From an uncultured bacterium (GTDB lineage: Bacteria; Bacillota_I; Bacilli_A; RFN20; CAG-826): a stretch of 64,000 bases of DNA. The DNA is taken from NCBI GenBank assembly GCA_949283025.1, contig CASDRB010000005.1, positions 87,588 through 151,587 of the forward strand, in the 5' to 3' direction. Position numbers and translations under genes: made by a program. Positions 54,538-59,635 of the stretch are shown in pieces. The notes beneath the pieces were generated by a model. That model was not told where the DNA came from. It saw nothing but the letters and a program-made list of their open reading frames with translations, and made no database searches. Positions within the stretch are counted from its first letter, which is position 1, and every line of letters starts with the position of its first letter.

Positions 54538-55743
54538 TTAATGATAAGGATTAACGGTAATAGATCCATCAACGCAGACGACAATCGTCGTTCCTGCACT
54601 TGCTAACCAGTTAGAACCCCTCGTTATATTTTTCCAATCTGATTTTCTTCCACCATAATTAATTCTTGCCAAACGTTTGCAACCAAAGAAAGCATTATAA
54701 CCAATTCTAGTGACGCTCAATGGTATTGAAACAACTTTTAAATTAGGGCAATTAGAAAAAGCAGAAGGTCCAATTTCGCTAATTCCTAAAGGAATAATAG
54801 CGATTTCCAAATTTTCATTTTGTGAGAAAGCATGTCCACCAATTGAAGACAATTTTTCAGGCAAGCCCTTACCTGGAGCATACTTCACTTGAGTGATTAC
54901 GGTAGGATTAGTAGATGGTTGAGCAACATTAGATTCATTGGGTTTATTTTGCATTCCAGGAGTTTGAATAACAATTGGTGCTACTCCACCCATCGACATT
55001 GGATAACCATTATTTTGCATTTGCTGTGCCATCATCTCTTGTCGAGCTTTTTGTGCTTCTAAAATTCGTAAAGCTTCTTTAATATAAATTCTATTTTTAA
55101 ATGCAGCAGCATAAATAATTGTTAAAATAATTGCAACAATAAATACTCCGCCTAGACAAAATAATGAGTATTGAATATCAATAGAAGTTGCATTTATGAC
55201 CCCATAATCTGGTAAATTTTTGCCAACAAATAATTTTAAAATAACAAAATGCATTGTAACCACAATAGCGCTCAATATTACCTGGAAAGCAAATATGGCC
55301 CAAAACAAACCTTTTGGAACTTTCCAAGGAATGACGCCAGCAAGCAATCCAACCAAAGCAAAAATGACAGCAAACAAACCTAATAATGCAATAATAACCA
55401 ATACCCCAAAAACAACATAATTAAATACTTGCGTGAATATATTTGCATATTGAGCAGGGAGCATATTGGCTATGTAATTGTCAGTAAAATAATTAAAAGC
55501 CGCGCTCGGTTTAATATCCTTTAAAAAATTATTTAAAACAAATTTAGCATAATCAATAGCGTAAACATCGTGAAAAGTGTATTTGCCTCCCGCAATTGAA
55601 TCGCCAAATTTAAAAAGTGGAACATACCATAAAACGGCAGCTAATCCACCAATACCTAAAAGTAAAAAAATCGATGAAAAGATGGTTCCCGCAGACCAGC
55701 GCTTAACCACTTTCATCCCATTAATTCTATTAATCGTGTTCAT
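54538..55743 (-). CDS. Multi-spanning membrane protein with C-terminal BspA-type leucine-rich repeats
   Basis: 401 aa. Four or five membrane segments in residues 18-230, a Gln/Met-rich helix (about 232-255), a Pro/Asn-rich linker, then about three LRR_5/BspA-like repeats (about 300-375: FSQNENLEIAIIPLGISEI, FSNCPNLKVVSIPLSVTRI, FFGCKRLARINY). LRR_5 repeats are usually found on secreted adhesins; here they follow a membrane domain. No Shine-Dalgarno sequence; TATAAT (55757-55752) ends 8 nt before the ATG. Leads the gene pair to ispD. Confidence 0.8.
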   Translation of the reverse strand: MNTINRINGMKVVKRWSAGTIFSSIFLLLGIGGLAAVLWYVPLFKFGDSIAGGKYTFHDVYAIDYAKFVLNNFLKDIKPSAAFNYFTDNYIANMLPAQYANIFTQVFNYVVFGVLVIIALLGLFAVIFALVGLLAGVIPWKVPKGLFWAIFAFQVILSAIVVTMHFVILKLFVGKNLPDYGVINATSIDIQYSLFCLGGVFIVAIILTIIYAAAFKNRIYIKEALRILEAQKARQEMMAQQMQNNGYPMSMGGVAPIVIQTPGMQNKPNESNVAQPSTNPTVITQVKYAPGKGLPEKLSSIGGHAFSQNENLEIAIIPLGISEIGPSAFSNCPNLKVVSIPLSVTRIGYNAFFGCKRLARINYGGRKSDWKNITRGSNWLASAGTTIVVCVDGSITVNPYH

Positions 55744-55828: not shown

Positions 55829-55857
55829 TTGACAATAACGAGTCAATCAATTATATT
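55829..55857 (+). promoter_or_regulatory. Promoter of the Ig-like lipoprotein leader
   Basis: TTGACA (55829-55834), 17 nt, TATATT (55852-55857). Predicted start near 55864, one base before the first strand of the folded RNA described next. Confidence 0.75.
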
Positions 55858-55863
55858 AAAGTT

Positions 55864-55990
55864 AGAATAGGTTTGAGACACCCCCCGGTTTCCACTCCTC
55901 AATAGGAAAACTAGTCTTATAAAAACACGTTAAATCTATTCATGTTTTTTGACACCAATGAGGAGGTAAAAGCTAGGGATTTTTTATTTT
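55864..55990 (+). ncRNA. Candidate structured leader or small RNA with a pseudoknot
   Basis: Helix 1: GAATAGGTTT (55865-55874) pairs with AAATCTATTC (55932-55941), ten pairs including one G-U. It encloses a hairpin with TTTCC (55889-55893) and GGAAA (55905-55909) whose 11-nt loop holds CTCCTCA (55895-55901). That loop pairs perfectly with TGAGGAG (55959-55965) downstream, giving a possible pseudoknot. A T run (55980-55985) follows. No open reading frame of note and no match to a riboswitch class I know. It fills most of the 310-nt gap before the lipoprotein gene. Confidence 0.5.
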
Positions 55991-56053
55991 GTTTGTTTGA
56001 GAATATCTTTTATTTAGAACTAAATTTTTAAGTGCAAGAAAGGAGCACATATA

Positions 56054-58135
56054 ATGAAAAAACTGTTCTATGTTCTGATTGTTCCGTTACTTCTATTAGC
56101 AGGGTGTACAACCACAAACACTTCCAGCAGTGAAACAACAAGCGAAGTGCCTACTACATCAGAAGTAAAACCAACATCGATTGAGATTACATCTCCATCA
56201 TCCCAAACAACCATCTTAGTCGGTGAAACATTGCAATTAAACGCTGCAGTTTCACCATCAGGAGCTTCACAAAGTGTTACCTGGTCTTCATCATCAGATG
56301 CATTAGCCACTGTCTCAAATAATGGTTTAGTTACCGCGGTTGCACCTGGAAACGTCATTATCACTGCTAAATCAGTCATCGATACAAATATTAGCGGTGA
56401 ATACGCCCTCATTGTTGAAGAGGCACCTGTCGTAGAAGTACCTCCAACATCTATCACTGTCACAGGTGAAACAACTGTTAAAGTTGGTGAAACAATTTCT
56501 TTAAGTATTAGTGTTTTACCAGAAAATGCGGTTGACACTGTGACTTGGGCAACATCAAATGAAGAAATTGCTAGTGTTTCCAATCGTGGCGTAGTAAAAG
56601 GTATGGCAGAAGGAAGCGTTACTATCACTGCTACCTCAACTTTAGATACTAACGTCAAAGGAACATTAAACGTTTCTGTTGAAGAAGCCGATATTCCTGA
56701 TCCAACCATCGATTGGGAAACAGTCGAATACACAACTCATGACGAATTCGTCAACATGGAAGCTGATGCACCAGTAAAAGTCAAAGGTGTCGTCACTGCA
56801 GTTTCTAATGTTAAAGATAATCAAATCAATTACTATATTCAAAATGGTACCGAAGGTTTTTATGTCTATGCTCAAAATGCGACATATTATCCAGTAGAAG
56901 TCGGTAAATCATATGAAATCGGCGGATTTTATAAATACTATTTCACAGGCACTCACGAAGTTGTTGATGTTGAATATTTTAAAGTATTAGAAGAAGATAT
57001 CGTTGCCGAAATTAATGATTTAAGCGAAGTAAACATCGCTGCATTAGATGAAACTACTCCATTATATGGATCTTTAGTTAAAGGTGAAAAATTTGTTGTC
57101 ACATCCGTACCAAGCAAAGTTACTTCATCATTTAATTTAGGTGTAACTTTAAATGGAAATTCTCATACGATGCGCATTGATTCAACATTGATGTCTGATC
57201 AAGAATTTGAAGCTATTGGCGAAAGAGTTTCCGCCTTGCAAGTCGGTCAAACCTTTGATTTAACAAAAGGAATTATGTCGGCTTATGGTTATGGAACACC
57301 AAAACCACAAATTTTAGTTTTAAGTGCTGATGATATCGTTGAATCTCAACTTACCCCACAACAAAAAGTAGATTCTGTTAAAAATGCATTACATGTTAGA
57401 GAAAGCCTTGATAATACTGTAACACAAATCAGTTTGCCAACTACATTTGACGGGTTTGATGGTGTTACTATCTCTTGGCAAACATCAAATGATGCATTAA
57501 TTACAACTGCTGGTGTTGTCACTCATCCAGAACGTGATACGCTCGTTAAATTAACCGCCACCATCGCTTGCGAAGATGTCAGCGAAGTTGTCGAATACAA
57601 TGTCAATGTTTTAGCCAGCGACGATTCTTATTATTCAGTCGTCCACACCTTAGATTTAGAAGATGCTTTGCCAGCTGAACAATATGCTACATCCCCTTCT
57701 AAATCCGGATACGCTGAAGGCAATATCGATTTAGGAACACCTAACGCTACATGGATGTTAAGAAATGCCTTAATCGGTCAAGATACAGGTGATGTTAGAA
57801 ATGGCGAATGGTCAATTCGTATTCAATCTTATCCTGATTCAACCTTAGACGATACTGGCCGCGTCGAATTAAAAGAAGATTTAAGCTTTAACACTGTTGA
57901 ACTTCGAGTTTCTGCCTATGGTTCAGATCCATATGGAACTTATATCAATATTGCTTATTCTACAAATTCGGGCGAAACATTTGTTGATGTAATTAAAATC
58001 AAAATAGCTGAAAAAGCGTTGAATTTATATCGTGTTTCTTTACCTGAAACCGCCAATCGTGTATCTATTTATCAAACTGGTGCTACAGCAAGAACACGTG
58101 CCAATATCGACGATATTCGTTTGCTCAATGCATAA
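56054..58135 (+). CDS. Surface lipoprotein with two Big2 Ig-like domains and an OB-like domain
   Basis: 693 aa. Lipobox LLAGC, a Thr/Ser-rich linker, two Big2 domains (about 35-120 and 130-205; both have VTW(S/A)(S/T)S and the (G)VV/(G)LVxG turn), then an OB-type domain (about 225-315, VKVKGVVTAVSNVKDNQINY), an Ig-like segment with ISWQTSNDALITTAGVVTHP (about 470-520) and a C-terminal beta-sandwich-like part (about 535-693). Ribosome site AAAGGAG 8 nt before the ATG, with a long structured leader. Function unknown; adhesion or polymer binding is a guess. GC-richer codon use suggests high expression. Confidence 0.85.
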   Translation: MKKLFYVLIVPLLLLAGCTTTNTSSSETTSEVPTTSEVKPTSIEITSPSSQTTILVGETLQLNAAVSPSGASQSVTWSSSSDALATVSNNGLVTAVAPGNVIITAKSVIDTNISGEYALIVEEAPVVEVPPTSITVTGETTVKVGETISLSISVLPENAVDTVTWATSNEEIASVSNRGVVKGMAEGSVTITATSTLDTNVKGTLNVSVEEADIPDPTIDWETVEYTTHDEFVNMEADAPVKVKGVVTAVSNVKDNQINYYIQNGTEGFYVYAQNATYYPVEVGKSYEIGGFYKYYFTGTHEVVDVEYFKVLEEDIVAEINDLSEVNIAALDETTPLYGSLVKGEKFVVTSVPSKVTSSFNLGVTLNGNSHTMRIDSTLMSDQEFEAIGERVSALQVGQTFDLTKGIMSAYGYGTPKPQILVLSADDIVESQLTPQQKVDSVKNALHVRESLDNTVTQISLPTTFDGFDGVTISWQTSNDALITTAGVVTHPERDTLVKLTATIACEDVSEVVEYNVNVLASDDSYYSVVHTLDLEDALPAEQYATSPSKSGYAEGNIDLGTPNATWMLRNALIGQDTGDVRNGEWSIRIQSYPDSTLDDTGRVELKEDLSFNTVELRVSAYGSDPYGTYINIAYSTNSGETFVDVIKIKIAEKALNLYRVSLPETANRVSIYQTGATARTRANIDDIRLLNA

Positions 58136-58147
58136 TAGGTTTTAAAA

Positions 58148-59635
58148 ATGAAAAAGATTAAAAAAATTGTAGCGATTTTACTCTTTGCTAATTTATTAGC
58201 GCTTGGAGCATGCACAACCACACCATCTTCCTCAAATACAAATGATGATATATCAACATCTTCTTCTACAATTGATGCTAGTGGATTAAGCATACAATTA
58301 GATGGACAAGATGTAAATGAAGCATCAGTTTATGTGGGTGAAAATATTACTTTAAAAGCCGTTGTTAATCCTTCAACGGCTTCTCAAAAAGTAACATGGA
58401 CAACTTCAAGCGATGCTATTGCCATAGTAAATGATGGTGTTGTGACTGGCGTTTCTGATGGAACAGCCATCATCAAGGCTACCACTGAAAATAACATATC
58501 TAAAAATGTCTTTGTCAAGGTTTCTACTAAACCAGGGCAAACTGGTGTTGGAAGCGGTTTATCACCCGATGATCCTATTTATATAGGCAATGAAGGAGAA
58601 GATGAACCTTTAGAAATTTATTTCATTGAAACAATGCGCATTTATTCTGATGCTATCTTTATTAAAAAAGGCAATGTCGAAATTTTAATTGACGCTGGAT
58701 ATGAAGAAGATGGCACTTATATTTCTTCTTTTATCGATGAACATTGTGAAGATGGAACATTGGATGCTTTGATGTTATCTCACTCAGATGGCGATCATAT
58801 TGATGGTCTAACCAATGCTTTACAAAATGTTGAAAACATTTCTTTGATGGTTGACTATGGTGGAATGAACAATGGTAAAGTTGGTCAAATTCGCACCAAA
58901 TACATCGAAAATGGGATGCAATATCATTCAGCCTATGATTCGGTTAACTTCCTTAATGGTGGATCAAATTATTATTATTTGACGGATGATTTTTACTTCC
59001 AAGTTTTGGATACTAAAAACTATATTACCTCCACCGATACTAATGCCTCTAATCCTTCCTCTTTAGCTGTTATTTTCTATTATAAAGACTTTACATTCTT
59101 TACTGGTGGAGATTTAACAACAGCAAGTGAAGGTGATTTAATGAATAGTGAGATTCTTCCAGAAGTCACCTTATTTAAAGCCCATCATCATGGCTCACAC
59201 GGATCTAATAGTCAATCATTTTTAAACGAAATTAATCCAAAATTTGTAGCGATTTCTGCTAGTCGTGCCAGCGGATATGGTAGACCTTGGACTGGTCCAA
59301 GTCAAAGCGATACTTATAATTTAGATGCTACGACTGGTCATCCAGCCGATGAAGCAGTTGAACGAATCTTTAAAGCGCCAAGAATTAGTGAAAATCACAA
59401 CGTTTATTGGAACGCTATCAATGGAACTATGAAATTTACTACTTATGGCGAAGATGATTGCACTTTTGAAGGTTCTCCAACTCGCAAAGGATATTATGAT
59501 TTGACCTTAACTGATGGAATCCCTGTTTGGAACAGCGAATTAAATGATTGGGAAAACAAGGTTACTGGCGAGGAAAATCTTAAATTCTGCGACACTAAAG
59601 CCTTTAAATTTAGAGGCTACGAATCATTTATCTAA
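58148..59635 (+). CDS. Secreted lipoprotein with Big2 domain and ComEC-like metallo-beta-lactamase domain
   Basis: 495 aa. Lipobox LGAC, Ser/Thr linker, one Big2 domain (about 45-125, QKVTWTTSSDAIAIV), then a metallo-beta-lactamase domain (about 150-410) with metal motifs LSHSDGDHIDGL, FFTGGDLTT and FKAHHHGSHGSN. This is the ComEC/Rec2-type hydrolase family, but placed outside the cell on a lipid anchor. Substrate unknown; nucleic acids or phosphodiesters are possible. It follows the Big2/OB lipoprotein gene by 12 nt and ends at a terminator, so the two form an operon. Confidence 0.87.
   Translation: MKKIKKIVAILLFANLLALGACTTTPSSSNTNDDISTSSSTIDASGLSIQLDGQDVNEASVYVGENITLKAVVNPSTASQKVTWTTSSDAIAIVNDGVVTGVSDGTAIIKATTENNISKNVFVKVSTKPGQTGVGSGLSPDDPIYIGNEGEDEPLEIYFIETMRIYSDAIFIKKGNVEILIDAGYEEDGTYISSFIDEHCEDGTLDALMLSHSDGDHIDGLTNALQNVENISLMVDYGGMNNGKVGQIRTKYIENGMQYHSAYDSVNFLNGGSNYYYLTDDFYFQVLDTKNYITSTDTNASNPSSLAVIFYYKDFTFFTGGDLTTASEGDLMNSEILPEVTLFKAHHHGSHGSNSQSFLNEINPKFVAISASRASGYGRPWTGPSQSDTYNLDATTGHPADEAVERIFKAPRISENHNVYWNAINGTMKFTTYGEDDCTFEGSPTRKGYYDLTLTDGIPVWNSELNDWENKVTGEENLKFCDTKAFKFRGYESFI

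Follow-up and report, generated by a model that had tools for sequence, protein, structure and literature searches.

On balance, positions 55864-55990 of the 64,000-nucleotide stretch of DNA analysed here (the window) seem to be the 5′ leader of a two-gene lipoprotein operon and to act as a two-state cis-regulatory RNA, a reading that leans on modelled folds. The leader is probably a real, undescribed RNA of a known general kind, namely a promoter-proximal bistable leader. If it is real, it adds an undescribed cis-regulatory RNA to those of uncultured Bacilli and points to a surface-lipoprotein version of the OB and nuclease domains of ComEC under RNA control. The clue to its signal would also be unusually good: a related genome has the same operon behind a guanine riboswitch, which makes concrete ligand tests possible.

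Locus and Operon

Upstream of the leader is a divergent membrane/LRR gene (54538-55743, minus strand), and downstream of it is the lipoprotein operon on the plus strand. Gene 1 (56054-58135) encodes a lipoprotein with two Big_2 domains, an OB-like region and an aBig_2 domain, and is preceded by AAGGAG (56040-56045) ahead of its ATG at 56054. Besides its Big_2 domains it has a region that can be aligned across orthologs; the assignment of an OB fold is based on the sequence-only reading of this DNA and on a weak OB match in the G488 paralog. Gene 2 (58148-59635, plus strand) encodes a lipoprotein with a Big_2 domain and a ComEC-type metallo-beta-lactamase (MBL) domain, the latter matching TIGR00361 (1.9e-14) and ComEC structures (2.8e-11). 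ComEC contains both an OB and an MBL nuclease domain, and the operon (56054-59635) may carry these modules split over two surface lipoproteins. It is reasonable to infer that the products would take part in the digestion of extracellular DNA or other nucleic acid.

An assignment of the element to the divergent LRR gene was considered and rejected, as the LRR orthologs in the genus do not have it upstream.

Elements of the Leader

The promoter at 55829-55857 consists of TTGACA (55829-55834), a 17-nt spacer and TATATT (55852-55857). It matches the consensus at 11 of 12 positions and places the expected transcription start near 55864; promoter-like sites in general show no excess (3 seen vs. 2.8 in shuffles). 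The first helix, P1, is a 10-bp inverted repeat (I4) of GAAUAGGUUU (= GAATAGGTTT) at 55865-55874 with AAAUCUAUUC (= AAATCTATTC) at 55932-55941. A minor helix, P2, identified by sequence with its pairs checked (55875-55918; GAGAC 55875-55879 with GUCUU 55914-55918), is stacked on P1. The C-run CCCCCC at 55881-55886 is the sole C6 in the window and is common to leaders of orthologous operons. It is followed by the P3 hairpin (55887-55912; GGUUUCC/GGAAAACU with the loop ACUCCUCAAUA), also identified by sequence.

The long-range pairing, X, appears both as inverted repeat I1 and in the minimum free energy (MFE) fold. It joins CCCCCGGUUUCCACUCCUCA (55882-55901) to UGAGGAGGUAAAAGCUAGGG (55959-55978), the latter carrying a purine run that resembles a Shine-Dalgarno (SD) site. 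The 20-nt repeat is 70% complementary in register, and its perfect inner 7 bp are CUCCUCA (55895-55901) and UGAGGAG (55959-55965). A further hairpin, P4 (55921-55949; AAAAACA 55921-55927 with UGUUUUU 55943-55949; inverted repeat I12), holds the P1 3′ strand in its loop; it is compatible with X and in competition with P1. Equivalent hairpins are present, as judged by eye, in G071 and G184.

A run of six T (55980-55985) lies directly 3′ of X and would make X a long-range terminator stem. A scan with loops of 3-8 nt finds no ordinary terminator between the leader and the gene, including at 55980, and X with its T run has an interior of 57 nt, whereas an intrinsic terminator is a GC-rich, short-loop hairpin followed by a T-run. 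No ATG, GTG or TTG stands at ribosome spacing after GAGGAGG. The promoter, the 10-bp helix, the CTCCTCA/TGAGGAG complementarity, the T run and a purine element with no start codon behind it had all been described in the sequence-only reading, and each is present in the window as described.

Two-State Folding and Proposed Mechanism

When the window RNA was folded as a growing transcript, P1 was part of the MFE structure for transcript ends at 55943-55963 (-15 to -16 kcal/mol); with ends from about 55978 onwards, X dominated (-23 kcal/mol). All five leaders folded (the window, G184, G071, G488 and G512) form P1 first and then X. The basis of the exclusion differs between lineages. In G071 and G184, P1 and X cannot coexist, because X uses the P1 5′ strand. 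In the window the two share no base, and P1 competes instead with P4, which sits inside X. A pseudoknot of P1 and X in the window seems sterically possible, as estimated from the 20- and 17-nt loops around the 7-bp core. The X repeat can either replace the folds that compete with P1 or knot with P1, so that the RNA has more than one fold available to it.

The proposed mechanism is as follows. In the computed folds, P1 is favoured in the growing RNA until the purine run at 55959-55978 has been made, after which X is far more stable. A factor holding P1, be it a ligand, a protein, a ribosome or temperature, would delay or prevent X; alternatively, the same factor might lock P1 and X into a pseudoknot. 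The outcome of this choice would set the expression of the operon. In the window, X with UUUUUU would act as a transcription terminator, although a terminator with a 57-nt interior would be unusual and conservation is lacking. In G071 and G184, X would instead bury a perfect SD of a 5-6-codon ORF, and in G488 and G512 neither a terminator-like T-run nor an SD-ORF output applies to X. Since these leaders differ at this point, our reading goes no further than a two-state leader that controls the operon in cis.

Leaders of Orthologous Operons

Orthologs of the gene-1 lipoprotein were found in other genomes; the leaders that share the arrangement start just behind a promoter and stand before orthologous or OB-fold lipoprotein genes. 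The remaining four genomes of the genus have neither the operon nor the leader. Boxes resembling -35 and -10 elements are visible by eye in the leaders of G071, G184, G242, G488, G512 and L115. The arrangement common to the leaders is a C-run soon after the promoter that is able to pair with a downstream purine run, and a C6 occurs at the same post-promoter place in G071, G184, G242 and G488b.

Two leaders from a different genus of the family, those of G071 and G184 (= L114), contain the promoter, (AG)UCG-CCCCCC and a P3 hairpin. Their P1 pairs AGUCGC-A-(A/G)UCG with CGAUGCGAUU, and their purine runs read AAGGAGGUGG or GAGGAGGUGA. In both, the purine run pairs with the C-run and with the P1 strand itself, which makes P1 and the long pairing alternatives; P1 also stands in another register to the C-run than it does in the window. 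In G242, from a sister family, GCCCCCC and AGGAGGGUGGC are followed by an ordinary-looking terminator. In G488 and G512, which belong to a distant family, CCACCCCUUU(U/C)UU occurs with AAGAAAGGG(G), and a second leader copy in G488 (G488b) precedes another OB-fold lipoprotein. The L115 leader, which comes from a Clostridia MAG, shows an 8-bp P1 enclosing CCACCCCC and no X. Such a leader is absent before five orthologs (G236, G254, G259, G282 and G540), and the upstream regions of the G087 and G032 orthologs are cut off by contig ends.

These comparisons bear on two claims of the sequence-only reading. A helix nested with a downstream pairing does recur in the orthologous leaders; the exact CUCCUCA/UGAGGAG pseudoknot is not conserved and was rejected as a conserved part, as the P3 loops of G071 (UUGA) and G184 (AAG) mismatch their own purine runs. 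A cis-regulator of the Big2/OB and MBL lipoproteins holds up insofar as a structured leader belongs to the operon, orthologous leaders being alike; it does not as a single-fold pseudoknot, since P1 and X are alternatives in G071 and G184.

Sequence conservation is limited. The leader has two alignable close homologues, the rest being too diverged to align. The window leader is significantly similar to that of G184 (p 0.001) and not to that of G071 (0.81 local, 0.18 global), and a leave-one-out profile from G071 and G184 fails to find it. Between the two alignable homologues, G184 and G071, one compensatory pair in P4 (A-U to U-A) was seen by eye. In 273 genomes of the order, the leader sequence model (R2) matches only three operon copies, which are its training sequences; the leader therefore belongs to the operon. 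The sequence and covariance models R1 and R2 show no cross-detection between lineages. A search with the leader DNA in the genus and family returned chance matches, the best of them inside coding genes, and viral contigs gave no match. The pattern CCCCCC-N-GGAGG is no commoner over 146 genomes than a reversed control pattern, so the spacing of C-run and purine run is not specific in genomes of the family.

Several further loci were observed during these comparisons. Perfect extended SD sequences with a 5-6-codon ORF (MPNNI, MAKHNL) stand about 90 nt before the lipoprotein gene at L076:990-1020 and L114:4200-4235. A very compact leader before the ortholog at L115:4220-4316 comprises a promoter, an 8-bp helix AAGAGAUG/CGUCUCUU around CCACCCCCAUCAAAAAA, an SD and an ATG. 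The CCCCCC leader at L100:1440-1800 (G090) has AAGGAGG, an ORF of 25 codons and a terminator, and the strand carries no larger gene; this could be a small-protein or toxin-antitoxin locus. A separate candidate leader RNA of about 200 nt occurs in G512 and G488 (L166 reverse, L167 reverse, L186:1490-1700 and L174), with two copies in G488 and no Rfam match. It has two hairpins with complementary 7-nt loops (UUGUACU/AGUACAA), and a weak copy in a third genome, G614, is flanked by genes named by eye as a sugar-binding lipoprotein and a permease.

Significance and Alternative Explanations

The plain MFE energy of the leader is average (z -0.16), and TGAGGAG by itself is unremarkable in frequency (5 copies in the 64 kb vs. 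2.9 expected). A composite test was based on the arrangement: it required P1 from the first 20 nt together with pairing between the C-run region and a position beyond P1, and the controls were dinucleotide shuffles of the part downstream. The window leader scores -33.7 kcal/mol and its shuffles -19.1 +/- 3.9 (p 0.002, z -3.7). The test is roughly calibrated, since among 150 random stretches 3 reach p <= 0.01 and 2 reach z <= -3. Given how freely the reader could choose, the window value on its own would be suggestive only. Among the orthologous leaders, p was 0.0007 for G184, 0.006 for G488b, 0.007 for G488, 0.008 for G512 and 0.017 for G071, and G242 was not significant (p 0.13), which makes six of seven leaders significant with the window included; G238 and L115 were not significant in a smaller run. 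The six represent three independent lines, because G071/G184 and G512/G488/G488b each form one lineage.

These results bear on one alternative, an ordinary unregulated 5′ UTR whose helices are mostly chance and were picked out by a reader of 64 kb. Average folding energy and weak sequence conservation agree with it, and one p value of 0.002 cannot decide the matter after selection over dozens of leaders. Orthologous leaders that were not chosen for P1/X significance nevertheless beat their shuffles in two further lineages, and the C6 that is unique in the window recurs after the promoter in G071, G184, G242 and G488b, which renders this explanation rather unlikely. Sequestration of an SD in the absence of a small-molecule ligand would give the leader a function of another type, either as a thermometer or as an attenuator with a mini-ORF, where X is opened by a ribosome sitting at the AGGAGG site. 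G071 and G184 indeed have AGGAGGUG(G/A)UU-AUG with the ORFs MPNNI and MAKHNL exactly in X, and G488b has AAAGGGAAAGU-AUG with MLISTI; the window, G488 and G512 have no start codon there, however, and the mini-ORF peptides are not conserved, so we regard this as improbable.

About as improbable is a small RNA acting in trans, some 120 nt long and with its end at 55980-55990, whose CCCCCC and CUCCUC would pair with SD sites of other mRNAs. It would account for the element having its own promoter and a T-run near 55985, and for the ordinary-looking terminator behind the element in G242; its C-rich segments also resemble the UCCC motif known from small RNAs of Gram-positive bacteria. But the element is tied to a single operon, and in the window the scan finds no ordinary terminator between it and the gene; the purine run matching the C-run also lies in the same RNA. 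A two-state leader acting in cis is the reading that we prefer to these three.

Candidate Signal

In G258, a purine riboswitch (RF00167) with a terminator lies directly before the orthologous Big2/OB lipoprotein (L156:1434-1534). It scores 57.1 bits against a cut-off of 37, and its J3/1 reads UACUAUGG, with the C that marks guanine-type switches under the known C74 rule. Among the genes behind other purine riboswitches of these genomes are one for a purine permease-like protein and some for substrate-binding lipoproteins similar to nucleoside-transport proteins (names by eye). A search for RF00167 in G000, G071, G087 and G032 gave no match. Owing to the guanine riboswitch of G258 and the contexts of the other purine riboswitches, a purine-linked signal is a first hypothesis and no more; a purine or DNA-related signal is likewise a first guess because the operon likely digests extracellular nucleic acid. 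A purine or DNA-scavenging signal for the leader is thus plausible but unproven. The most specific form of this idea seems quite unlikely: a new riboswitch class for a purine nucleobase, a nucleoside or another DNA breakdown product, which would replace the guanine riboswitch on an operon of extracellular DNA-digesting lipoproteins in small-genome Bacilli and switch between P1 and the C-run/purine-run pairing X.

Comparison with Known Systems

The sequence-only reading knew of no class with this sequence, and the comparison with Rfam 15 bears it out: no match reaches the gathering threshold in the window, and those that turn up when E is relaxed to 10 are chance matches. Among all leaders, Rfam finds only the G258 purine riboswitch, plus an SRP RNA on the other strand in L158. 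No report of such a leader was found in the literature, and a 50-genome RNA survey makes no mention of lipoprotein or competence genes.

The leader of G488 and G512 resembles that of the window in its operon, its promoter-proximal position, its P1 (GUAGC/GCUAC) and its pairing of C-run and purine run. It differs in its length of 200 nt and in an extra pair of hairpins with complementary UUGUACU/AGUACAA loops, and neither leader model recognises the other. In pseudoknotted riboswitches such as preQ1-II or c-di-GMP-II, the inner strand of a helix pairs with a downstream SD-like purine run. The window leader has the same form; it differs from them in that Rfam yields no meaningful match and in that the helices of G071 and G184 share a strand.

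The purine (guanine) riboswitch RF00167 occupies the same position before the orthologous operon of G258, there with a terminator, and is likewise a promoter-proximal leader with two competing folds. The window leader has no resemblance to it in sequence or three-way junction, and neither the window nor G000 gives a match; only the G258 leader has the three-way junction, the conserved J1/2, J2/3 and J3/1, and the loop-loop contact that define membership. In general, what the leader shares with riboswitches, on prediction only, is their overall form, a promoter-proximal cis leader with two mutually exclusive folds, the exclusion operating through a shared strand in G071 and G184 and through P1 vs. 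P4 in the window.
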